Positions 3,175 through 56,355 of a stretch of 64,000 nt of DNA are shown here, in pieces. Each line of letters opens with the position of its first letter. Positions within the stretch are counted from its first letter, which is position 1. The DNA comes from Aneurinibacillus uraniidurans. Lineage in GTDB: Bacteria > Bacillota > Bacilli > Aneurinibacillales > Aneurinibacillaceae. Under the pieces are notes generated by a model that saw only the letters and a list, made by a program, of their open reading frames with translations, was not told the DNA's origin and made no database searches. Location: contig NZ_CP116902.1 in assembly GCF_028471905.1 (NCBI RefSeq), forward strand, positions 2,268,501 to 2,332,500, given 5' to 3'. Made by a program: the position numbers and the translations under genes.

Positions 3175-3441
3175 TCCTATTGTATTGAAGTATTATTATG
3201 GAAGTTTATCAGCCATTGGAATGAAGATAAATGTCCATAATTACAGAAATATACCAATCCATATTTGACACTAAGTAATGCTCCCCTAAGTCAGAACTTA
3301 TGATCAGCGCATACGTATTTTGTCTGTTCCATTTTCACAGTCAATGACGTGAGCACTTGCGTGTCGGGTACCGTCATGCCTGTGAAGTCTATATCGTACA
3401 CATTGATTGGCTACAAGTCTTACAGATAGAAGAGCTTTTTT

Positions 3442-3517
3442 TTCCTGCTAAAAGAAAAAGCACGGATGAAACCAGGTGTTATAGCCTGCTTTTATCCATG
3501 CTCCAGGGAACAATCTT
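3442..3517. repeat. Imperfect hairpin repeat, left-flank copy
   Basis: About 75 bp resembling 24085-24161. The arms at 3459-3476 and 3485-3502 pair over about 18 bp with a few G-T or mismatched positions around a TGTTATAG loop. It lies just outside the left edge of the accessory island in a 425-bp stretch (3175-3599) where I see no convincing gene. The apparent 76-codon frame across it has no ribosome site. Confidence 0.55.
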
Positions 3518-3599
3518 ATCTTTCTGGGAAAAATTATTTTTTTCCTATTTACTGATTTTATTTTACGGATACATAGTAAAGAAATGAACATGACCTATC

Positions 3600-4933
3600 C
3601 TACAGAAGCACATCGATTTTTACTATAACCTCCTCAAGTATTCTTTTCTTGTTGTTCAATACTTGCGTCTCCTTCAACTCATTTAGTATTTTAACAACTT
3701 CATTTTTCGAGGGAGCATGGATAATTTTTTTCTGCTCTTTTCCATAAGGAAAGTACGGACTTGTATCTACCATCTGTTTCAAAGCATGTATAATCGTAGT
3801 TCTATGTCTATCTTCTAAATGAATCCATCTCATGATATCATCCCAAGTCGGTTTAGATACGGCAAAAAGGTCATCCCAACCTTCTGTTACAGGAAAACGT
3901 ACATGTTTTTCCATCCATGAAATAACTTTATTAGAACGGAAATGACAGAGATTTCTCGCGACGTCTGCGTTTGTGTGACCTTCTAGATACGAATATACAA
4001 GCTCTAATCCTTTATCTTCCGCTACACAACATGCACAGTAAGATATGAGCGAAGTTCTTCCTCTATAAGATTGTTGTCTTTCCAAAGTTCAATAACCCAA
4101 TCAGATGCAAACTCACCTAATACTTCTCCAATAATTTTGCAAGCTGTTCTTTTACGATGCCTATCTTCTTTTTTTAAACATATTTTTACTCTTTCAAATA
4201 TTTCATTCTGGCTGTATTGTTCAAACATTTCCTTCTCTAGTTTACCGTGGTTCAATACATACTCAATCACTTGCTCCAAATCATTTGAAATATCTTCCTT
4301 CTTCACCTCTGTTAATAATTTGAGCCAGCTTTTCCACCTAATAGATGCTTCATTAGTAGGATTAAGTCCATTGGAATTCATAAAGGGTTCGTATTGCCAA
4401 ATTTCCGCACCAACACAATATAAATCTGTTAGTTTCTCGATAAACGATAAAAAGCTATCCGCTACCAGAACCACTTCATCTTCTTCATGGCTCCAATAAA
4501 CAACACTTTTTTTATTTCCATCGGAACTCATATCAAATGCTAAAATATCGCCATTACCCACATAAAAAAACTGAAGTTTATTTTTCAGTCCTTGTCCATA
4601 TTCCTCATTCTCCATTTCAATGGAACTAGAAGTTAAATCTTCAATCCATTCTAAGTTCCATCCTAATTCCCCAGAAAAAATCTCACTAAATTCATCAGGT
4701 ACATTAACTTCATCAGGAAGAGACCAGCGAAAATATACCGCCTTCGAAAAATTTAATAATAAATCTTTAAAATCCTCAGGAAGTGAGAAACCTAGTTTGT
4801 ATTCAATATCATTAATTTCTTCTAGTGTTGCGGGACTATCAACAGAAAGGTCTTTTATCTTTCCACCAATCCCATGTATTTTAGACAAGATATCATTCCA
4901 TTGCTCTATAAAAATTGTGTAGTTTTTGTTCAA
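3600..4933 (-). pseudogene. SUKH (SMI1/KNR4)-domain protein, frameshifted
   Basis: Two overlapping reverse frames (4022-4933 and 3600-4085) appear to be one gene broken by a single frameshift near 4025-4085. The upstream part (303 aa, TTG start after AAAGGA) begins with a SUKH domain: ATLEEINDIEYKLGFSLPEDFKDLLLNFS, with conserved acidic and tryptophan positions. The downstream part continues with helical sequence. Both halves contain the recurring phrase EDRHR within similar helices, so they look like successive HEAT-like repeats of one polypeptide of about 440 aa. SUKH proteins are best known as immunity proteins to nuclease toxins. It is the last gene of a reverse run with DUF6414, DUF3841 and GIY-YIG genes. 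A sequencing error or programmed shift cannot be excluded. Confidence 0.65.
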
Positions 4934-5004
4934 AAATTACATATCCTTTCTCTTTATAGAGGATATTGCAAAACGCATACCCTCCTATTCAATAAAATGA
5001 TATT

Positions 5005-7406: not shown

Positions 7407-7702
7407 TGTACAGAATAAATAAACTCCTGACAAAAAACAGCCCTCCAACCCGCATTTCACCGTTGCCTGAGTAAATAAAGTTTTGCTACGAATCCGGCTT
7501 TTTTCGATTTTTTCTTCTCATTTTTTCTGTCAGAACTTTATTTTTTTCGTAATAATGTTTTGATAAAAAAATAGGGGAAAAGGCTTGATATGACTCGTTT
7601 TCGCCCTTTCCCCTCTTTCCTTTATCCTTGCCAAAAGCAGAACTTTATTTCGATTTTGGCAGATGTTTATTTAAAATAGCAGAACTTTATTTATTGGTTA
7701 CA
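7407..7702. mobile_element. 296-bp non-autonomous Tn7-like element (MITE), copy 1
   Basis: Begins TGTACAG and ends GGTTACA, flanked by a perfect 5-bp direct repeat CCTTC (7402-7406 and 7703-7707). This is the size of target duplication made by Tn7-family transposases. Inside are AAATAAAGT(T/C)CTG-type repeats: about two facing inward at the left and three inverted at the right (near 7550, 7641 and 7680), as for TnsB-binding arrays. No coding capacity. A near-identical copy lies at 14026-14321. An Rho-independent-like hairpin GGGAAAAGGC...CCCTTTCCCC lies in the middle. The lack of a transposase means it must be moved in trans. Confidence 0.75.
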
Positions 7703-7812: not shown

Positions 7813-10800
7813 TTAATAGTGATCTAAATCTTCTCTTAGTTCAGCCCTGATATCTTCCTGTTGAGACTTCCTGCTGTACTCGTCAGCAATGGAACGGAGT
7901 ATTGCGGTGGTACGCGGCCAACGTACACTAGTGATATTTGCGTAGGCATTATATCTTTCAGCAAGTTTTTTCTCCTGTGCTCCTCCCTCAGTCGTACTTT
8001 TACTTATAACCCCCCTACTGTTATATACGCCTAGATTAAACCCTCTTTCGAGGTTTGTATTGCTAAATTGCTCTATAACATCTCGTACAGCTTCATGTGG
8101 CCATGCACCATCTTCCCCAACAATGGATGCACTTAAAACTTCTCCAATATGCTGAGCCCCAACTGTACCTCTTCCCAAGTCAAGTGTGGCTTGTAAAGAA
8201 TTACTTACCCAATCAATCAACATTTGCTTATCAACAGTGTTATCTTCCTTTAAACTTGGTACTGTCCGCCAAGATTTTAATAGGTCATAACCTTGAGATG
8301 CACGCTGACGCTCCTCATTGGTAGGTTCTTTCGATTCTTCATTCTCTTCGTTATAGACCAAAGATATTACTTCTGCAAAAAAACTAGGGTTGCGTGCTAG
8401 TTCACGATGAAGAAGCTTAGGAGCATGACCATATCGATCTAGAATAGGGAGGTATGCCCATTCCAAAGATGCTATTTTCCCCTCATCAATGTCTTGAGAA
8501 TTCTCAAGTTTCTTAAACAACTCAGAAAGATGATAAGAAAATGAGTTAGATGGAAAATTGTCTTTTGGTGATACTGCAAGAGATTTTGTCAAGGCCTCCA
8601 CTATTTGATTGGGTTTGGCAAAGCTTTTACGCAATGCTAATAATTCAATTGCTGAATAGGGCAACATGTAATGTAAATACTTATCAACCGCCTTATCTAA
8701 GCCTTTCTCATCTATAGAATACAGTGAGATTAATGACCAGTATCTTCCCTCAACCTCATTACCTAATTGCTGTACTAAATTCCAAGTATCTTCATTAGAA
8801 GGTAAATAGATCAATATTTCTGCTTTTTTATTCGCCTCCCAATCCTTAGCAACTTCTAACATTCCTATTGCCCAATCATTTCCAAGACACTTAATACTAC
8901 CTAAAATATATCCACGAGCGAACTGAGCAAACTTCTTATCGGGAGAGTCTAAGTAGTCTAGAAGAAGATTATCCTCTTCCTTTACAATCAATCGGATTTC
9001 TCCAAGCGTTGAACCAAACTGAAATGGATGCTCTACATTATTCAGTAGATGAATAACTTCTCTAATTCCAAATCTTTCATAGATATTAATTAATGCATTT
9101 GCCCTTACTTCATGAAGTTTTCGCTCACGTTCTTCCCAATCCCCTTCACGTCCCTCTAGCAACTCAGGCCAATCGCTAAAGAGCCAACTATAACGGGGGA
9201 CTAGTTCTTTTGGTTCAAACTTGTGAAAAACTCCTTCTATTCGGTCTACTACTTTTTCAGGTAAAGCCCAGTCTGCATCTGGAAAAGACCGATGCCTCGA
9301 TATTTCTTTTCTGAGTGAGTTCCAAATCTGCCCTTTATCTTCTGAAGCAATGTCTAAATCACCTAGTCTATTAAGTTCATTTAAAACAATTTCAAAGTCC
9401 TCTAAAGGTAACATTGGTAGAGCTTTAATGATTTCATCCCAACGCTCGCCTGAGACTCCTACTTCTGTTATTAGGAGATTCACAATCTCATGGGTTACCC
9501 TGTCGTACTCTGCTACTAAAACATCTCTTTTATGATCTGGAGCCCAATCTCTCCATTTTGGCTTGGGTGTATTGTGTCCTACGCCATGAAACTGTGGTAG
9601 CAAGCTGCATAACAAATCCCAAGCAACTTTCGGCTCCCTTTTTAAAAGTACTTCAAGGGTTTGAAGCCGCTGGTCAATAGAAGCAGAAGTTTGCGGATTC
9701 CAAGACAGAAATATTTCACGAAGACTATTCTTAGGTCTATTAGTTAATTTTCCACCAGGATCTATATTACAGAGCCTAGCTAATAATATCGAAACTCTAC
9801 TTAGGTATTCTGGATTCCAAGCAAGTGTCTCAAGTGCCCAAAGCAGCCCTGTATGCGGAGAAGAACTAAACATAGCATCTTTTTGGTCATTAAATAGTTT
9901 TATAATTACCTCCTCATTTATTATTTCGTCTTCAAGTGCTTGAAGAAACTGTTCTGGTGCTGCCTCTGCAAGAAGTGGGAGGACAGAGGATAATGTAGAC
10001 CACACTTGCCAACTTCCTTTTGAACTTTTAAATAATTCATAAATAATATTAGAGGCATTAGTCCTCAGCGATAAAGCAGGATGAAAAGAGTCTTCCTTAG
10101 ATCCCATAAACGCTAGTGTATCTGCTATATTTTTTATGAAAAGTCCCGAATAATTAGATGAATGACCAATCGCCCCCGCTATCCACTGTTTCTCATTAGG
10201 CAGATCAAATTTAGGATCAATTGTGCTAAGCACCTTCAGAGCCACGGTTCTAAATTTTTCAATATCCGCTGGGGTAACGTAACGAATCAAGAGTGACCAT
10301 GCATCTTCTTTTGAAATTATATACCACGCGTGTCCTATACGACGGATAGGAGGGTCAGATTCATTTGCCCATCTTACTAGCAACTCAGTAAGATCATTGT
10401 AAGAACTTTGTGCCAATTCGATGAGAGCCTCTTTATCACCATCTTTTGTTTCATTCCAAGCACCTGCTAATAATAGCGGAATCAGAGATCGTGCCTCAAT
10501 TGGCCGTGCCCATAGGGGCTGCCTTATTTCTGGACTAAGAGCCGTCCGTCGACGGAATGTAGTAAGTCCTCTTCGAGCTAAAAGTCCGAGTTCACGTGAG
10601 TGGTTTTTATCAATTCCCTTTTCAATTAGGATTTTTGTCACTCTATCACGGGAAAGGCGCGGCATCATCAAAGTGTCTGACGTTGAACTATCGGAACGCC
10701 CCAGAGGTATCATGATGTGATGGCCATTCCTAATTGCACGACTTAAACCTTCTGAATCAAAAGCAGGTATTAGTAAAAGGTTATTTGGGGATGATGATAG

Positions 10801-11574
10801 ATAAGTCCATGCTTCTGAATTATTTACGACTATTGCTTTTGATAGAAAAAAATCCTTCTCTATTGAGGGAAGCAGACTAATAGAGGCAGCAAACACAGCT
10901 ATAGCTTCATCACGTGTTTCTGCTTGTAGCCTTAGTGGAGAATTTGGATTTTTCAGCCACTGATATATTTCTGTTGAAATATTTTCACGCCCTGCTAATA
11001 CCATTTCTGGTGAGATAGCAGGTTGGGTTTCTTCCGACCAATCTGTCCAATAACTACCTAGATCAGTGCAGTTCTGGGGGTGCTTACCTAACAGTACAGA
11101 CAACCAAACATGAACAGTAGGATTTTGGCTCAACCAAGTTTCAAGATCATCGGCATCATAAACACGAACTTCCTTCCAAATTCCTTCTTTTTGCCTTTCT
11201 TCAGTCCATTTATCTTTATCTCTCCACCGCCTAGGTGTGATAAAAACATATGTGGTTTCTGTAGGAATCATAAATAACGGATTTTTGCTTCGTTTCTCGT
11301 AATCGTCATCAGCTTTCCCTTTGACACTTCTGTTTACCCCCATTTCCCACACTGTTGTGCCTTTTGGTATAAAACTATCACTTTCCTCGGCAATAGTAAT
11401 ACCATCCCATCCACCAAGACTCACTCCTTCACCTGCAGCAAAGTTTATTTTTTCAATATGATCGCTACTTGAAAGTATTAAACTTCGAATAAGCTGGGGG
11501 AGTACAGATTGTGAGTCACGTCTATCTGCCCACTGAACTAGATCAGTTGCATCAACGAGTAATTTAGAATGCAT
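7813..11574 (-). CDS. 1253-aa protein with N-terminal restriction-endonuclease-like region and helical repeats
   Basis: A very large soluble protein with no close characterised relative that I can name. The first 160 residues (GGWDGITIAEES, VWEMGVNRSVKGKADDDYEKR, TTYVFITPRRWRDKDKW, VYDADDLETWLSQNP) have the layout I associate with PD-(D/E)XK-like modules at the head of large defence proteins. The acidic pair would be WDG and WEMG, but a clean ExK is not obvious. Residues about 200-300 (AGRENISTEIYQWL) resemble a degenerate STAND/NTPase start without a recognisable P-loop. The remainder is alpha-helical, repeat-like and Trp-rich. ATG follows AGGAGG. It is transcribed alone, between MITE copy 1 and small HTH genes. 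A phage-defence function is inferred from context and architecture. Confidence 0.55.
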   Translation of the reverse strand: MHSKLLVDATDLVQWADRRDSQSVLPQLIRSLILSSSDHIEKINFAAGEGVSLGGWDGITIAEESDSFIPKGTTVWEMGVNRSVKGKADDDYEKRSKNPLFMIPTETTYVFITPRRWRDKDKWTEERQKEGIWKEVRVYDADDLETWLSQNPTVHVWLSVLLGKHPQNCTDLGSYWTDWSEETQPAISPEMVLAGRENISTEIYQWLKNPNSPLRLQAETRDEAIAVFAASISLLPSIEKDFFLSKAIVVNNSEAWTYLSSSPNNLLLIPAFDSEGLSRAIRNGHHIMIPLGRSDSSTSDTLMMPRLSRDRVTKILIEKGIDKNHSRELGLLARRGLTTFRRRTALSPEIRQPLWARPIEARSLIPLLLAGAWNETKDGDKEALIELAQSSYNDLTELLVRWANESDPPIRRIGHAWYIISKEDAWSLLIRYVTPADIEKFRTVALKVLSTIDPKFDLPNEKQWIAGAIGHSSNYSGLFIKNIADTLAFMGSKEDSFHPALSLRTNASNIIYELFKSSKGSWQVWSTLSSVLPLLAEAAPEQFLQALEDEIINEEVIIKLFNDQKDAMFSSSPHTGLLWALETLAWNPEYLSRVSILLARLCNIDPGGKLTNRPKNSLREIFLSWNPQTSASIDQRLQTLEVLLKREPKVAWDLLCSLLPQFHGVGHNTPKPKWRDWAPDHKRDVLVAEYDRVTHEIVNLLITEVGVSGERWDEIIKALPMLPLEDFEIVLNELNRLGDLDIASEDKGQIWNSLRKEISRHRSFPDADWALPEKVVDRIEGVFHKFEPKELVPRYSWLFSDWPELLEGREGDWEERERKLHEVRANALINIYERFGIREVIHLLNNVEHPFQFGSTLGEIRLIVKEEDNLLLDYLDSPDKKFAQFARGYILGSIKCLGNDWAIGMLEVAKDWEANKKAEILIYLPSNEDTWNLVQQLGNEVEGRYWSLISLYSIDEKGLDKAVDKYLHYMLPYSAIELLALRKSFAKPNQIVEALTKSLAVSPKDNFPSNSFSYHLSELFKKLENSQDIDEGKIASLEWAYLPILDRYGHAPKLLHRELARNPSFFAEVISLVYNEENEESKEPTNEERQRASQGYDLLKSWRTVPSLKEDNTVDKQMLIDWVSNSLQATLDLGRGTVGAQHIGEVLSASIVGEDGAWPHEAVRDVIEQFSNTNLERGFNLGVYNSRGVISKSTTEGGAQEKKLAERYNAYANITSVRWPRTTAILRSIADEYSRKSQQEDIRAELREDLDHY

Positions 11575-14025: not shown

Positions 14026-14321
14026 TGTACAGAATAAATAAAGTCCTGACAAAAAACAACCCTCCGGCCCGTATTCCATCGTCGAGTGATTAAATAAAGG
14101 CTTGCTACAAATCTGGCTTTTTTCGAGTTTTTACTCTCATTTTTTCTGTCAGAACTTTATTTTTTTCGTAATACTGTTTTGATAAAAAAACAGGAGAAAA
14201 GGCTTGATAGGACTCGGTTTCGCCCTTTCCCCTCTTTCCTTTATACTTGCCAAAAGCAGAACTTTATTTCGATTTTGGCAGATGTTTATTTAAAATAGCA
14301 GAACTTTATTTATTGGTTACA
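14026..14321. mobile_element. 296-bp non-autonomous Tn7-like element (MITE), copy 2
   Basis: Same length and about 90% the same sequence as copy 1. It begins TGTACAGAATAAATAAAGTC and ends TTTATTTATTGGTTACA, with the same arrangement of about two left and three right AAATAAAGTTCTG-type sites. Flanks are TCTCC and CCTCC, a 5-bp target duplication with one difference. No coding capacity. Positions 14322-14527 hold only the shared flank and AT-rich sequence. Confidence 0.75.
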
Positions 14322-15448: not shown

Positions 15449-15631
15449 AGCTACCACTCCCCCTTATTTCCTAATGAATTACCTTATTTTAACACAAATA
15501 GACATTGTAAAGTATCATGAGGAAGGATTGTGATAATAAGTAATATAATTGGTTATTAGGTGAACTGGGCAGTTAGCTACTTTAAACGGCTCTTGTAAAG
15601 AGTACCTAGTAACAGCGTATCATTCGTCTGC

Positions 15632-17326: not shown

Positions 17327-18613
17327 TCATTTGATCTGCACTCTAACGTAATCTTCACATACAATATTCCCCTGTCGATACACCCTACAAATCATCTTGT
17401 GAACCCCACGATAAGCAGTATGTTCTCTGACGCTTATTCCCTCCTTAAAATGTCCAAGGTCTTTTTCTTCTACACATTCATCACCATCATTTACGACTTC
17501 CCATTCCACTTTTGAAAAGTCGAAAAAGCTTGGTATAGCAGTAAATTGAATGTATTTGTCTTTGGGAATGGGTCCCAACACTTCATTCAGAGGAATAAAT
17601 TCTCCAGGATTCCACTCTACCTGTGCTACAATTTCAACAGTATATCCCCCATAACTTTTCGCCAGCATTATACGATTTTCAGCAGTTTCCGTAATCAACT
17701 CACCCCAATAGGAGTGGTTGAAAAAATCTTTCCATGCTGAGAATGCCTGATTTTCGGTGCAGTCATCTTTAAATAATACATCCAGTTTACTAATGTAGTT
17801 TGTAAGCCTTGTGTGTAAATTCTTTACCTTTTGATGGTCTTTTGCATTTAAAAGCAAACTAGAGTCAGAATCCTTTGGATTATATACTTCCTTGTTATCT
17901 TCAAGGCGATCTCGAATAGCTTTTATCGTATAGTAGAAAGTTTCATCAATGCGGTCTTTCGATTGAATACATTCTTCAGCCAATACGGATTGGATTAACC
18001 CTCCAGGCATTGACCACCCGCTTCTTGATTTGCAAAACATCTTGAGCAAGCGAACCACTTTGCGAATGTTTCCATTTGAATCAGTGTTACTATCATTAAA
18101 CCATTTTGTAATAACTTCTGGATCTCGATTTCGCCAAGCACTGCCGCAATGTTCGTACACGTCATTGCCATCTTCGTCTGTAGATTTGCGATATACGGCA
18201 AAATCAATATGGTATCCACTCGCATATTCTACCCGGACACAATTCGTTTTTGCTTCTGGCTCTGTTTTAAATCTCTTGCATTTTCGTTCTAATGCATCAA
18301 CGATTATGTTTTTTGTTGCGATTGTTCCATCTGGAAGGTCGTCTTTGTTAAAGATGATCGCCACATCGATGTCATATTCATTTTCTTCATTTTGTACGAT
18401 GGTGCTCATTGCCATACTGCCTTGTATTTTGTGATCAATCAGAGTGTGTTTCGTTTTATGTTCTTCGTTATATTCAGCTAGTCCAGACACTAGCCTATCT
18501 ATGTTTAAGTCTTTCTTTTCTTTTAGCTCCGTTTGATCTGTTGCTCGAAGCACAACATGATCATTGTAAAATGCATTAAATTTAGCACTTGCGTTATACA
18601 TGCTAGTTGACAT
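17327..18613 (-). CDS. CBASS CD-NTase (SMODS nucleotidyltransferase with AGS-C sensor)
   Basis: 428 aa. The nucleotidyltransferase core has GSMAMST (G65, S66), the paired aspartates in YDIDVAII (D81, D83) and the third catalytic aspartate in YHIDFAVYR (D137). These are the active-site features of DNA-polymerase-beta-like CD-NTases, which make cyclic di- or trinucleotides on phage infection. The C-terminal 100 residues (EWEVVNDGDECVEEKDLGHF and YRGVHKMICRVYRQGN) match the AGS-C sensor domain of Burroughs and colleagues. The ATG follows GAGGTG. It is 11 bp downstream of its predicted effector gene on the same strand, forming a compact two-gene operon. No Cap2/Cap3 (E1/E2 or JAB) genes are present, so type I CBASS. 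The nucleotide product cannot be read from sequence. Confidence 0.88.
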   Translation of the reverse strand: MSTSMYNASAKFNAFYNDHVVLRATDQTELKEKKDLNIDRLVSGLAEYNEEHKTKHTLIDHKIQGSMAMSTIVQNEENEYDIDVAIIFNKDDLPDGTIATKNIIVDALERKCKRFKTEPEAKTNCVRVEYASGYHIDFAVYRKSTDEDGNDVYEHCGSAWRNRDPEVITKWFNDSNTDSNGNIRKVVRLLKMFCKSRSGWSMPGGLIQSVLAEECIQSKDRIDETFYYTIKAIRDRLEDNKEVYNPKDSDSSLLLNAKDHQKVKNLHTRLTNYISKLDVLFKDDCTENQAFSAWKDFFNHSYWGELITETAENRIMLAKSYGGYTVEIVAQVEWNPGEFIPLNEVLGPIPKDKYIQFTAIPSFFDFSKVEWEVVNDGDECVEEKDLGHFKEGISVREHTAYRGVHKMICRVYRQGNIVCEDYVRVQIK

Positions 18614-18624
18614 CGTTCATCACC

Positions 18625-19704
18625 TCATCCAAATAAGATAAATTGCCCTTTCCTTTGACCGTTTAGAACAATCCCCCACGGATATTTTGGCGTTGATTGA
18701 ACGTTGTATTGATAGTTGACAATGGCTTTCATGCGATTATCGTCAATCAACTTGCCCAATTCAAAAGCAAAACAACTTTGACCTGATATGACGAGATGAA
18801 TATTTTGGAGTTTTGGTAATTTTCGATCCACTTTCATTAGCAAATTGTAGGCAGTATTCACATATTCCTGCAACTGTTCTTTGTATATGATGAGGTTGTC
18901 TGTTGATCCAGAAACAGCAAGATGGATGCAAGGACAGTTAAATTGCGACAACTGCTCGTCTGAAATTTGTGCAGTGAGACTAATTGCTACTACAACTTCG
19001 TCGCAAGTAGAAGCATCGATTGAAGCAAACGGATCCTGAACCTGTGTCGTTAATTGGGGATAACTTTTCCTGAATGGCTTTTTAATAAGCTGATAGTACG
19101 TCTGCTCAAACTTGTTGTATTCGAAGTATTCATCCATACGCTCCCGTTCGAAAAATTTTCCAGCCATCATCACAAATGGAATCGATGCAACACCTGTATA
19201 CCCACGTTTCTTGTCCTTGCTCTCCATCTTGAAAGCATTAACCTTCTGCTCAATTTCTTCGACAATATCATTTGATATGTGTTCATTCACACCTCGTCCA
19301 TATTGTCGAACAAAATCGATTTCTTTTTCTTTGAACTGAAATGAATTCATGCCGACATCCTTGTGATGGTTTTCAATTTTTCGTTGGTGAAACATTCCGT
19401 TAATGTTCATGATGTACATCTTGTTCTTAACATGGAACATCAAAAACAAACCAATAAGGAAAAGCACACCTCCTGTCCCCAATTGAACGAGATTATTTTG
19501 CACTTCATTATGGCTTAAAAATGCAAACACTTTATCATCAAACGTTCCAAATGAAGTGACAATCAGTTCAATACCAACCGTCATAATGAAGTCTGCCACC
19601 GCTTGCTCACTTTGCATATTTATCATGTGCTTGACGAAAAATATCCCACCGATAAGTAGTATGAAAAAAATAATAGTCAATGCTAATTCATAGCTTATAT
19701 TCAT
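18625..19704 (-). CDS. CBASS effector, transmembrane-SAVED (Cap14-like)
   Basis: 359 aa. Two to three hydrophobic helices occupy the N-terminal 95 residues (about 6-24, 38-53 and 75-92). A basic linker follows, then a C-terminal SAVED sensor domain of about 180 residues, recognised by HLAVSGSTDNLIIY, the long helix YKEQLQEYVNTAYNLLMKV, LQNIHLVISGQSCFAFELGK and VNYQY near the end. SAVED domains bind cyclic oligonucleotides made by the partner CD-NTase. In Cap14-type effectors this triggers membrane disruption and abortive infection. It is the first gene of the pair, with GGGGG upstream of ATG. The assignment follows from the SAVED signature and the neighbour; membrane damage is known for the family, not shown here. 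Confidence 0.85.
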   Translation of the reverse strand: MNISYELALTIIFFILLIGGIFFVKHMINMQSEQAVADFIMTVGIELIVTSFGTFDDKVFAFLSHNEVQNNLVQLGTGGVLFLIGLFLMFHVKNKMYIMNINGMFHQRKIENHHKDVGMNSFQFKEKEIDFVRQYGRGVNEHISNDIVEEIEQKVNAFKMESKDKKRGYTGVASIPFVMMAGKFFERERMDEYFEYNKFEQTYYQLIKKPFRKSYPQLTTQVQDPFASIDASTCDEVVVAISLTAQISDEQLSQFNCPCIHLAVSGSTDNLIIYKEQLQEYVNTAYNLLMKVDRKLPKLQNIHLVISGQSCFAFELGKLIDDNRMKAIVNYQYNVQSTPKYPWGIVLNGQRKGQFILFG

Positions 19705-20071: not shown

Positions 20072-20983
20072 TCAGACTGGCAACTTATAGTTATATTTAC
20101 TATCTTTAAGATTATATCTTTGACCGTTACTCCAAAAGATAATAGGCACATTGCCATTCTTCTCAATATACCTATCCACGCTCTTTTGAAGTTCATTCTT
20201 AACCCACTCTCTCCAACTATCCATTGGTGGAAGAAAGAAATATCCAGTATCATCATCTCCAATGGCGACATAGGATTCATTAAGAACAAGCATACCTATC
20301 AAACTACAGATTAGAGCAGCTCGTTTTTCATGATCCATTTCTTGGCTCAAACTCGTCCATATTGAATGATCTAAGAAAGTGCTGGATGCACGAAGTTTTT
20401 CAAAGAGACGATTTTTCTGACAGTAATCATATAAACGGTCAAAAGTGTCCCTACGACCTTTTTTCTTTGGAGGTAATTGGTTATAATCATTATCATTAAG
20501 GAGAATTCCCAATACGACATTGGGGCAAGTCTCTATAAAATTATTATCAGGTTCAACTTTTGGAAAATTGGTGATAAGATGTTGTTTATTTGACAGATAC
20601 TCAATGAATTGAACAACTGTATCACCACCTGCTCGACGTAACCCATAGCCCGTATTGCCGACAATCTTATTGTGGCCGTCATAAGTATTCTTGGAATGCG
20701 TATGACCAGGTTTACAACGTGAAGGGAATACCTTGCCTAATGTGAAAAGTGTCTCTACTACACGAATAGCGTTTCCATCAACTCTCTTATTGCTATAAGT
20801 GTTGGGCAATAAAGGAGCATCTACACAAATGAGATCTATCTCCCTATCCAAGTTTAGCACCTCTAATTTGCTGATCTTATCCGAAAAAGTACGGAATACT
20901 TTCGTTTGTTGATTAACGATTTGACATAATCCAGTTGAATTAGTTGTGTACGACAACCCACAGTCGATTCCCAAAATATGCAT
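20072..20983 (-). CDS. DUF429 (RNase H-fold) protein
   Basis: 303 aa. The N-terminus ILGIDCGLSYTTNSTGLC, followed by a strand ending in ICVDAPLLPN, gives the two acidic positions of the RNase H-like fold. RCKPGHTHS, GYGLRRAGGD and FIETCPNVVLGIL are further DUF429 signatures. DUF429 proteins are predicted nucleases or Holliday-junction-resolvase-like enzymes without demonstrated substrate. It is downstream of a HEPN gene on the same strand, separated by about 135 bp, so the two may form a defence pair. The ribosome site (AGGTTGAAG) is spaced somewhat long from the ATG. Confidence 0.7.
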   Translation of the reverse strand: MHILGIDCGLSYTTNSTGLCQIVNQQTKVFRTFSDKISKLEVLNLDREIDLICVDAPLLPNTYSNKRVDGNAIRVVETLFTLGKVFPSRCKPGHTHSKNTYDGHNKIVGNTGYGLRRAGGDTVVQFIEYLSNKQHLITNFPKVEPDNNFIETCPNVVLGILLNDNDYNQLPPKKKGRRDTFDRLYDYCQKNRLFEKLRASSTFLDHSIWTSLSQEMDHEKRAALICSLIGMLVLNESYVAIGDDDTGYFFLPPMDSWREWVKNELQKSVDRYIEKNGNVPIIFWSNGQRYNLKDSKYNYKLPV

Positions 20984-24044: not shown

Positions 24045-24084
24045 TGTAACCATAAAAATAATTGTTCCCTGCCCGTGTTGCTTT

Positions 24085-24161
24085 CCCTGATAAAAGAAAA
24101 AGCATGAATGAAATCAGGTGTTTAAACCTGCTTTTACCCATTCTTGAGAGAACAACTTTAT
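24085..24161. repeat. Imperfect hairpin repeat, right-flank copy
   Basis: About 75% identical to 3442-3517. Here a larger fold is visible: ATTGTTCC (24061) can pair with GGAACAAT (near 24200), and CCCTGATAAA with TTTATCCAGGG, around the central CAGGTGTTTAAACCTG hairpin. Confidence 0.55.
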
Positions 24162-24310
24162 TTATCCAGGGAAGGAGTTACTTTGCTGAGGAACAATTAT
24201 TTCTTGCGATAACACGAGTATTTTTCACTCTTATATAAATTACTGAGCAATCTAACTTGGTTACCGACTTTAATGTCAAGCAACATCTGCTCTATATAGA
24301 AAAGTCCTAA

Positions 24311-24358
24311 TTACTCTATAGTTAAACTTTTAGCTATATTCCGTGGTCGGTCAACACT
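24311..24358 (-). pseudogene. glmS: glmS 3'-end relic (attTn7-like site)
   Basis: Reverse reading gives SVDRPRNIAKSLTIE followed by TAA, which is the conserved C-terminus of glucosamine-6-phosphate synthase (VDxPRNLAKSVTVE). Nothing upstream is GlmS-like, so only about 15 codons survive. TnsD of Tn7 binds exactly this part of glmS and directs insertion a short distance downstream. Here the last Tn7-like terminus lies about 270 bp downstream (lower coordinates), in the correct orientation. The fragment is far from a real glmS gene. Confidence 0.7.
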
Positions 24359-24383
24359 TAATATCCATACTAAATATACATAA

Positions 24384-24417
24384 AAACATCCAGTCTTGAT
24401 TAAGACTGGATGTTTTG
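24384..24417. terminator. Perfect inverted-repeat terminator
   Basis: AAAACATCCAGTCTT paired with AAGACTGGATGTTTT around GATT; bidirectional. It separates the island from the glnA operon. Confidence 0.75.
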
Positions 24418-24499: not shown

Positions 24500-25831
24500 T
24501 TAGTAATTCATGTACTGCTCGCGCTCCCATGCGTGAACAGTTGTGCGGAACATATCCCACTCGATTTCTTTCGCTTCTACAAAGTGCTCAAGCGCATGTT
24601 CACCAATTGCTGCACATACTACTTCATCTTTCAGCAGCTCTTGAATCGCTTCTTTCAGCGTAGCTGGCAGACTTGCGATACCAGCCTCTTCACGTTCTGC
24701 TTCGTTCATAACATAGATGTTGCGGTCAACTGATGCCGGAGCTGGCAGTTTGTTCTCTACGCCGTCAAGACCTGAAGCAAGCAGAACAGCCAGTGCGAGG
24801 TACGGGTTCGCAGCCGGGTCCGGATTACGAACTTCAATACGAGTGCTCAGGCCACGGGAAGCCGGGATTCGGACAAGCGGGCTGCGGTTTTTCGCAGACC
24901 ATGCCACGTAGCACGGAGCTTCATAGCCCGGTACAAGACGCTTGTAGGAGTTTACAGTCGGATTCGTGATCGCTGCAAATCCACGAGCGTGCTTGATAAT
25001 ACCAGCCAGGAAGTGCATCGCTGTTTCACTCAAGCCAAGCTCAGTAGACGGATCTTCGAATACGTTTTTGCCCTTAGCGAAGAGGGAGAGGTTGCAGTGC
25101 ATACCGGAACCATTAATACCGAACAACGGTTTCGGCATGAACGTTGCATGCAGACCGTGTTTGCGTGCAATTGTTTTAACAACAAGTTTGAATGTTTGGA
25201 TCTGGTCAGCTGCTTCTACTGCATCCGCATATTTGAAGTCAATTTCGTGCTGACCTGGTGCTACTTCATGGTGAGATGCTTCCATATGGAATCCCATTTG
25301 CTCAAGCGTCAGTACGATATCACGACGGCAGTTCTCACCGAGGTCAAGTGGTGCGAAGTCAAAATATCCACCTTGGTCGTTCAGTTCTGTAGTCGGCTGG
25401 CCTTTTTCATCCAGTTTGAAGAGGAAGAATTCTGGCTCTGGTCCAATGTTGAACTGATCGTAACCGAGTTCTCCTGCTCTTTTGAGGGAAGCTTTCAGAA
25501 CTTGACGCGGGTCACCCATGAATGGTTTGCCATCCGGTGTGAATACATCACAGATAAAGCGAGCAACTTTTCCACCTTCTGTAATCCATGGGAATACCAC
25601 GAATGTGTTGATGTCTGGATACAGGTACATATCAGATTCTTCAATGCGAACGAAACCTTCAATTGAAGAACCGTCAAACATCATTTTGTTATCCAGTGCT
25701 TTTTCCAGCTGGCTTGACGGAATCTCAACATTCTTGATTGTACCGAGCAAATCTGTGAATTGAAGACGAATGTATTTTACATTTTCTTCTTCAACCAAAC
25801 GATAGATGTCATCTTTTGTGTACTTTGCCAT
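24500..25831 (-). CDS. glnA: Glutamine synthetase, type I (GlnA)
   Basis: 443 aa, the usual length for the short Firmicute GSI-alpha form without an adenylylation loop. Visible landmarks are the beta-grasp start ([20 protein letters not shown]), [73 protein letters not shown] and [16 protein letters not shown]. It makes glutamine from glutamate, ammonia and ATP. The feedback-inhibited enzyme also controls GlnR and TnrA in Bacillus. The start is the ATG ten bases after AAGGAGG; a TTG two codons earlier overlaps the spacer. It follows glnR on the same strand, 66 bp apart, as in the classic glnRA operon. Confidence 0.97.
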
Positions 25832-25897
25832 CTCCAAACAGCCTCCTTAAGTCTCTCCCTCACTGCTGAGGAAACTCCATTGTGATTTATTGTAATA

Positions 25898-56143: not shown

Positions 56144-56300
56144 AAAAACCTCTTTTGTGCAGACAAAAGAGGGGGATGTTTAACTCTCTTATCTCTCAGA
56201 GTACGCGTAAAGCCGCTCCGCTGGAATTGGCACAGCTTATAGCATGATGCCGCCGCTGCCGGGTTTCATCGGGCCAGTCCCTCCACCTCTCTTGATAAGC
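56144..56300 (-). promoter_or_regulatory. SAM-I (S-box) riboswitch with terminator
   Basis: Reverse strand reads CTTATCAAGAGAGGTGGAGG, then GACTGGCCCGATGAAACCCG, GGCAGC and, at the 3' side, CTCTGAGAGATAAGAG. These are the P1, P2 and P3 landmarks of the S-box aptamer (about 56188-56300). A terminator hairpin follows, CCTCTTTTGT/ACAAAAGAGG with TTTTTT (56144-56175). High SAM should stop transcription of metN-metI-mtnE. Confidence 0.93.
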
Positions 56301-56355
56301 TTCATATTAAGTTATAAATCAACAGATATGAATGTATCATGTCAGAACAATCGTG

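Follow-up and report, generated by a model that had tools for sequence, protein, structure and literature searches.

Results

The window, by which we mean the whole 64,000-nt stretch of Aneurinibacillus uraniidurans DNA that was analysed, contains a glutamine synthetase gene (glnA) followed by a terminator-like hairpin, a 21-nt stub similar to a group II intron 5' end and a 48-nt piece of a glmS 3' end. Beyond this glmS relic stands the right end of a Tn7-like element, which borders a set of cargo genes occupying approximately positions 3393 to 24285 (Table 1).

Table 1. Features of the glnA–relic junction and of the adjoining island (window coordinates).
Feature	Position	Strand	Remarks
IS-like remnant, left limit of the conserved chromosome	3297..3392		Alignment to 3366 with G004, to 3392 with G003 (L024)
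End-proximal repeat, second copy	3440..3573	-	Same orientation, far side of the island
SUKH/SMI1-KNR4 protein gene, cargo	4022..4933	-	
CBASS-type cyclase and SAVED/2TM effector, cargo	17327..19704	-	
TnsD C-terminus remnant, 95 aa	23315..23602	-	PF15978 positions 324-355, E 1.8e-4, below gathering score
End-proximal repeat (AAATAAAGTTGT and hairpin)	24063..24184	-	Also adjoins glmS2 in G005 and in the host genome
Tn7-like right end, type A	24259..24285	-	TGTTGCTTGACATTAAAGTCGGTAACC; same end at glmS2 of relatives
Expected 5-bp target duplication	24286..24290		TCTGC on the + strand; search for a second copy at a left end negative
Spacer	24291..24310		20 nt; attTn7 +3..+22
glmS 3'-end relic	24311..24358	-	15 codons and stop; 36-bp TnsD-binding interval (+23..+58) and 12 bp more
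Stub similar to a group II (IIC-like) intron 5' end	24359..24379	-	21 nt, directly after the terminator; GTATATTTAGTATGGATATTA, degraded from GTACGCCCGGCATGGGTATTA
Terminator-like hairpin downstream of glnA	24383..24416	-	AAAACATCCAGTCTTAATCAAGACTGGATGTTTT; same in G007, first half in G005
glnA (glutamine synthetase), neighbour of the relic	24500..25837	-	Identified by translation; glnA-glnR order common to relatives

The minus strand of the window read from 24358 to 24311 translates to SVDRPRNIAKSLTIE followed by a stop codon and matches the 3' end of glmS. The best 16-mer of the window scored 66 BLOSUM62 units against the GlmS tail, whereas the best score among 200 windows simulated with a first-order Markov model and matched in (dinucleotide) composition was 39 (mean 23.9, sd 3.4). 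The fifteen GlmS codons reported in the initial annotation are thus real, and a chance or convergent resemblance, refuted by this simulation and contradicted by the match of the relic DNA to glmS tails from other genera and by the Tn7-like end at the correct distance from it, may be dismissed. The orientation is also as first described, with the stop codon toward the island, which puts the expected entry point of a Tn7-like insertion at about 24286-24290. The absence of a glmS gene, in contrast, holds only locally, where the neighbour is glnA: the host genome possesses two complete glmS genes, both far from this locus (C1:3629914-3631710 on the minus strand and C1:1451125-1452957 on the plus strand), which makes the relic an extra, partial copy. 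Comparison with the endings of host GlmS2 (HDVDRPRNLAKSLTVE and stop) and GlmS1 (CDVDKPRNLAKSVTVE and stop) places it with the GlmS2 kind.

In E. coli the TnsD site comprises the final 36 bp of glmS, positions +23 to +58 when counted from the centre of the target duplication; seven of them (+31, 33, 42, 43, 45, 51 and 54) are critical for TnsD (PMC2918618). With this numbering, checked on the four bases named in that work (+31 C, +42 T, +43 T and +51 T), the relic spans +23 to +70 and includes the complete TnsD interval. The distance from the relic stop codon to the TGT of the transposon end is 25 nt, that is, 20 nt of spacer and the 5-nt place of the duplication, the same as in the Tn7 geometry. 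By the criteria of the E. coli TnsD, from which those of the local TnsD may differ, six of the seven critical bases are kept in the window and one is lost (+31 C to T), while the compared intact glmS tails all retain seven. With the +31 change the window relic may no longer bind TnsD, and its present function is uncertain. The locus thus resembles attTn7 at the glmS 3' end (PMC2918618) in the 36-bp interval, the stop position, the distance of about 25 nt and the orientation; it differs in that the relic has no glmS gene, lies behind glnA and, in the window copy, carries a change at one critical base. It adjoins glnA instead of terminating a functional glmS gene, and judged from its sequence it is built like an attTn7 and could act like one, but is not the native attTn7.

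The type A end is not peculiar to the window. It occurs past the stop codon of intact glmS2 genes at 25 nt in Aneurinibacillus tyrosinisolvens LL-002 (G007), at 24 nt in G004 and at 35 nt in G006; the relic is thus accompanied, at the customary distance, by an end family proper to glmS2. Because the end lies 25 nt from the relic on the island side, the relic falls outside the element, which does not carry it. The host's own glmS2 is also followed by sequence resembling Tn7-like ends (L006 6961-7300), and the native attTn7 has therefore probably been visited too. No match was found for the relic-plus-end sequence among plasmids, for the type A end among viral contigs or for the TnsD remnant among phage sequences.

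The same glnA–hairpin–stub–relic junction is present in A. tyrosinisolvens (contig C30), where the contig with glnA shows synteny with the window (estimated contamination of this genome, 8%). There the relic retains all seven critical bases and is followed, 29 nt past the stop codon, by a different end, type B. This end is found three times in that genome and nowhere else in it than near glmS tails, namely at both relics and near glmS2, and by its place and its repeats it appears to be a Tn7-like end as well. The second relic of this genome (C23), with five of the seven critical bases, is not at glnA; it carries some 190 bp similar to the 3' region of glnA, but not glnA itself. An IS91-type transposase fragment adjoins this second copy (L048, 198-536 and 770-971), and capture by IS91 rolling-circle transposition could have copied the region. 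Six other genomes of the genus have glnA and no relic, one of them (G005) keeping half of the hairpin. When 84,980 species genomes were scanned for the exact pattern, the two A. tyrosinisolvens copies alone were returned; the pattern was strict and derived from the known relic copies, and the set may lack the genome to which the window belongs.

The stub in A. tyrosinisolvens reads GTACGCCCGGCATGGGTATTA and differs at one of 21 positions from the 5' ends in L057 and L059, of which L057, in a further genome of this family, is identified as a group II intron by its internal matches to Rfam RF02001/RF00029. Group IIC introns insert after terminators, according to the work of Robart (2007) as it is cited in PMC7161350, and the stub has its 21-nt 5'-end motif directly behind the terminator hairpin; unlike such introns, the window keeps the stub alone, fused to the glmS tail. 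No group II match to ribozyme domains or to an intron-encoded protein was found in the window, and the stub is a scar only. On the simplest reading, an intron would have resided behind the glnA terminator and been cut to the stub when the glmS tail was joined, and GGTAT/GGATAT, common to the stub and the G291-type glmS tail, may have served as microhomology. The hairpin sequence CATAACCTTGCC was considered as an interspersed repeat and rejected, its exact copies being found at this locus only. Elsewhere in the window a SAM riboswitch (RF00162) lies on the minus strand at 56186-56301.

Between the window and A. tyrosinisolvens the relic differs at 5 of 48 positions and the adjoining stub at 8 of 21 (Fisher p 0.016), while at the fourfold sites of glnA there are 106 differences in 181. 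Compared with these sites the relic has diverged far less, and must therefore either have been exchanged, being younger than the split, or be constrained. Recombination importing the A. tyrosinisolvens glnA 3' end was rejected as the route: identity along glnA does not clearly rise toward the end, and there is no sign of a long tract. As to the source of the tail, the window relic shares 31 of 48 bases with host glmS2 and 34 to 36 with glmS2 of more distant genera; for the A. tyrosinisolvens relic the values are 33 and 36 to 40, and it is 88% identical over 48 nt to glmS of G291, from another family, with the same NVDRPRN residues. A copy of the host's own glmS2 is disfavoured by the 31 of 48 bases alike. 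The closer fit of the relic DNA to certain foreign glmS tails than to that of the host makes an external source probable, and more likely than local duplication, although 48 bp cannot prove origin. A search for the donor in the family of G291 returned intact glmS genes only.

The island beside the relic is decayed. The TnsD fragment, 47% identical over 76 aa to a complete TnsD of G005, is the only tns part, and no tnsA, tnsB or tnsC was recognised among the main island ORFs scanned. An intact left end was looked for and not found, nor was a second copy of the target duplication beside one, the only TCTGCTGT in the island lying at 15627 with no recognisable end there; this is a sign of decay, and the limits given above for the island are approximate. 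The far-side copy of the end-proximal repeat suggests a truncated, older element in tandem, that is, stacked elements. The SUKH gene lies in a stretch (3582-4935) that has 83% identity with a portion of the G005 island adjoining glmS2. The same genome has two complete tnsABCD-type operon sets on one contig (C16; L076, L077), with metal-related cargo nearby. Further content of the window island comprises a duplicate stretch (7543-7692 and 14162-14311), each copy with three equally spaced AAATAAAGTTCTG repeats and possibly representing a duplicated element end or promoter region, a 1253-aa protein (7813-11574) with no Pfam match and a faint match to PADLOC PD-Lambda-4_A (E 9e-5), and a 303-aa protein (20072-20983) weakly matching the PADLOC candidate family PDC-S44. 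Tn7-like islands are found downstream of glmS in Bacilli, for example BCEGI-1 of B. cereus ATCC 10987 (PMC2359905), which likewise combines cargo and Tn7-like genes next to a glmS tail; there, however, the island follows an intact glmS, while in the window the glmS part amounts to 15 codons and the tns genes are reduced to the TnsD remnant.

Discussion

The data favour the view that the 48 bp are an ectopic attTn7, an extra, gene-less glmS 3' end that was joined to the intron stub behind the glnA terminator and probably used in place as a transposition target. The TnsD of an arriving element would have bound the relic as it binds glmS and recruited the transposase, placing the insertion on the island side with the right end turned toward the relic; elements stacked by repeated visits would later have decayed to a cargo island with a scrap of TnsD. 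The relic would thus be a target outside the element and not its cargo. This reading is supported by the occurrence of the type A end at glmS2 in G004 and A. tyrosinisolvens, by the recurrence of the junction in a second lineage with a type B end, by the TnsD remnant and by the cargo common to a glmS2 island of the same genus. The lost +31 base, the missing second duplication and left end, and the lack of recognisable tnsABC count against it. The spacers past the relic also differ between the window and A. tyrosinisolvens, which makes a common target DNA for the two lineages only a possibility, and the relic could have come with an element in tow.

The proposal of a displaced attTn7 made in the initial annotation is therefore supported by the full TnsD-site interval and by a Tn7-like end exactly 25 nt past the stop codon, as at a real glmS; the combination that would have spoken against it, a dissimilar intact glmS together with absence of the relic from related islands, was not found. 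Of the two origins offered there, a rearranged chromosome is only loosely right, insofar as a short, additional glmS 3' end became fused to the intron stub behind glnA, and wrong if it implies that a host glmS was broken. The other, an element family carrying its own target site, is not supported, given the position of the relic outside the right end and the same ends adjoining intact glmS2 in G004, G006 and A. tyrosinisolvens.

The main rival is that a glmS 3' end moved into the glnA-intron site as a block with Tn7-like elements already attached, the relic being a passenger that was never a target here. We consider this possible but rather unlikely. Such a relocation would yield the exact 25-nt spacing without a new insertion and agrees with the foreign look of the relic DNA. 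The window spacer, moreover, weakly resembles the glmS2 spacer of A. tyrosinisolvens (TTCTATAT), and GGTAACCTGACA, 3' of the relic in that species, resembles a piece of the A end, so that both lineages may descend from a relic–A–B array. The difference between the A end of the window and the B end at 29 nt, however, demands at least one change of element after the join, and the glmS part is just 48 bp, cut near the TnsD site. Overall, use of the relic in place is favoured over its arrival with an attached element.

Alternatively, the relic could be an attTn7 cassette under constraint that is spreading: along with the 3' region of glnA it would be retained, or passed from species to species, because landings there are harmless. 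The low divergence of the relic compared with the stub and the glnA fourfold sites points in this direction, as does the C23 copy with its glnA-3'-like sequence; but the sample is tiny, the GC-rich stub may have mutated faster toward AT, the C23 copy is short of two critical bases and the relic is absent from six genomes of the genus. We regard this as improbable.

That the element carries a glmS tail within its own end as a portable target appears very unlikely. The glmS homology does start near TGTTGAC, which is similar to the TGT of a transposon terminus, and the C23 relic moved with flanking DNA. Against this, the A end lies 25 nt further in from the relic, the same end stands at glmS2 of G004 and A. 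tyrosinisolvens without a relic of its own, two lineages that differ in their elements have identical joints between terminator, stub and relic, and on sequence inspection the bases before TGT mismatch an intron-derived target duplication. An element terminus inside the relic, with TGTTGAC as the end, was rejected on the same evidence.

Genomes with several glmS genes, such as those of Burkholderia, hold several attTn7 sites. The ectopic attTn7 proposed here would similarly give more than one attTn7 per genome, with the difference that the Burkholderia-type sites belong to complete glmS genes. In the open-access literature, most subscription journals lying outside this scope, we found no description of a natural attTn7 without glmS.

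A glmS-free attTn7 might even be a mobile landing pad, a cassette copied and exchanged across species with its flanks and recognisable through continued use by Tn7-like elements; we hold this to be unlikely, but if it were true, the target of a transposon would spread as well as the transposon. If such a site works, the relics with seven, six and five of the critical bases would form a set of natural target variants for testing TnsD specificity. Tn7-like elements are thought to be safe for their home in an essential gene, which cannot be lost. If an attTn7 lacking glmS works, the target is separable from the gene, and it would provide a second genomic site for defence islands.
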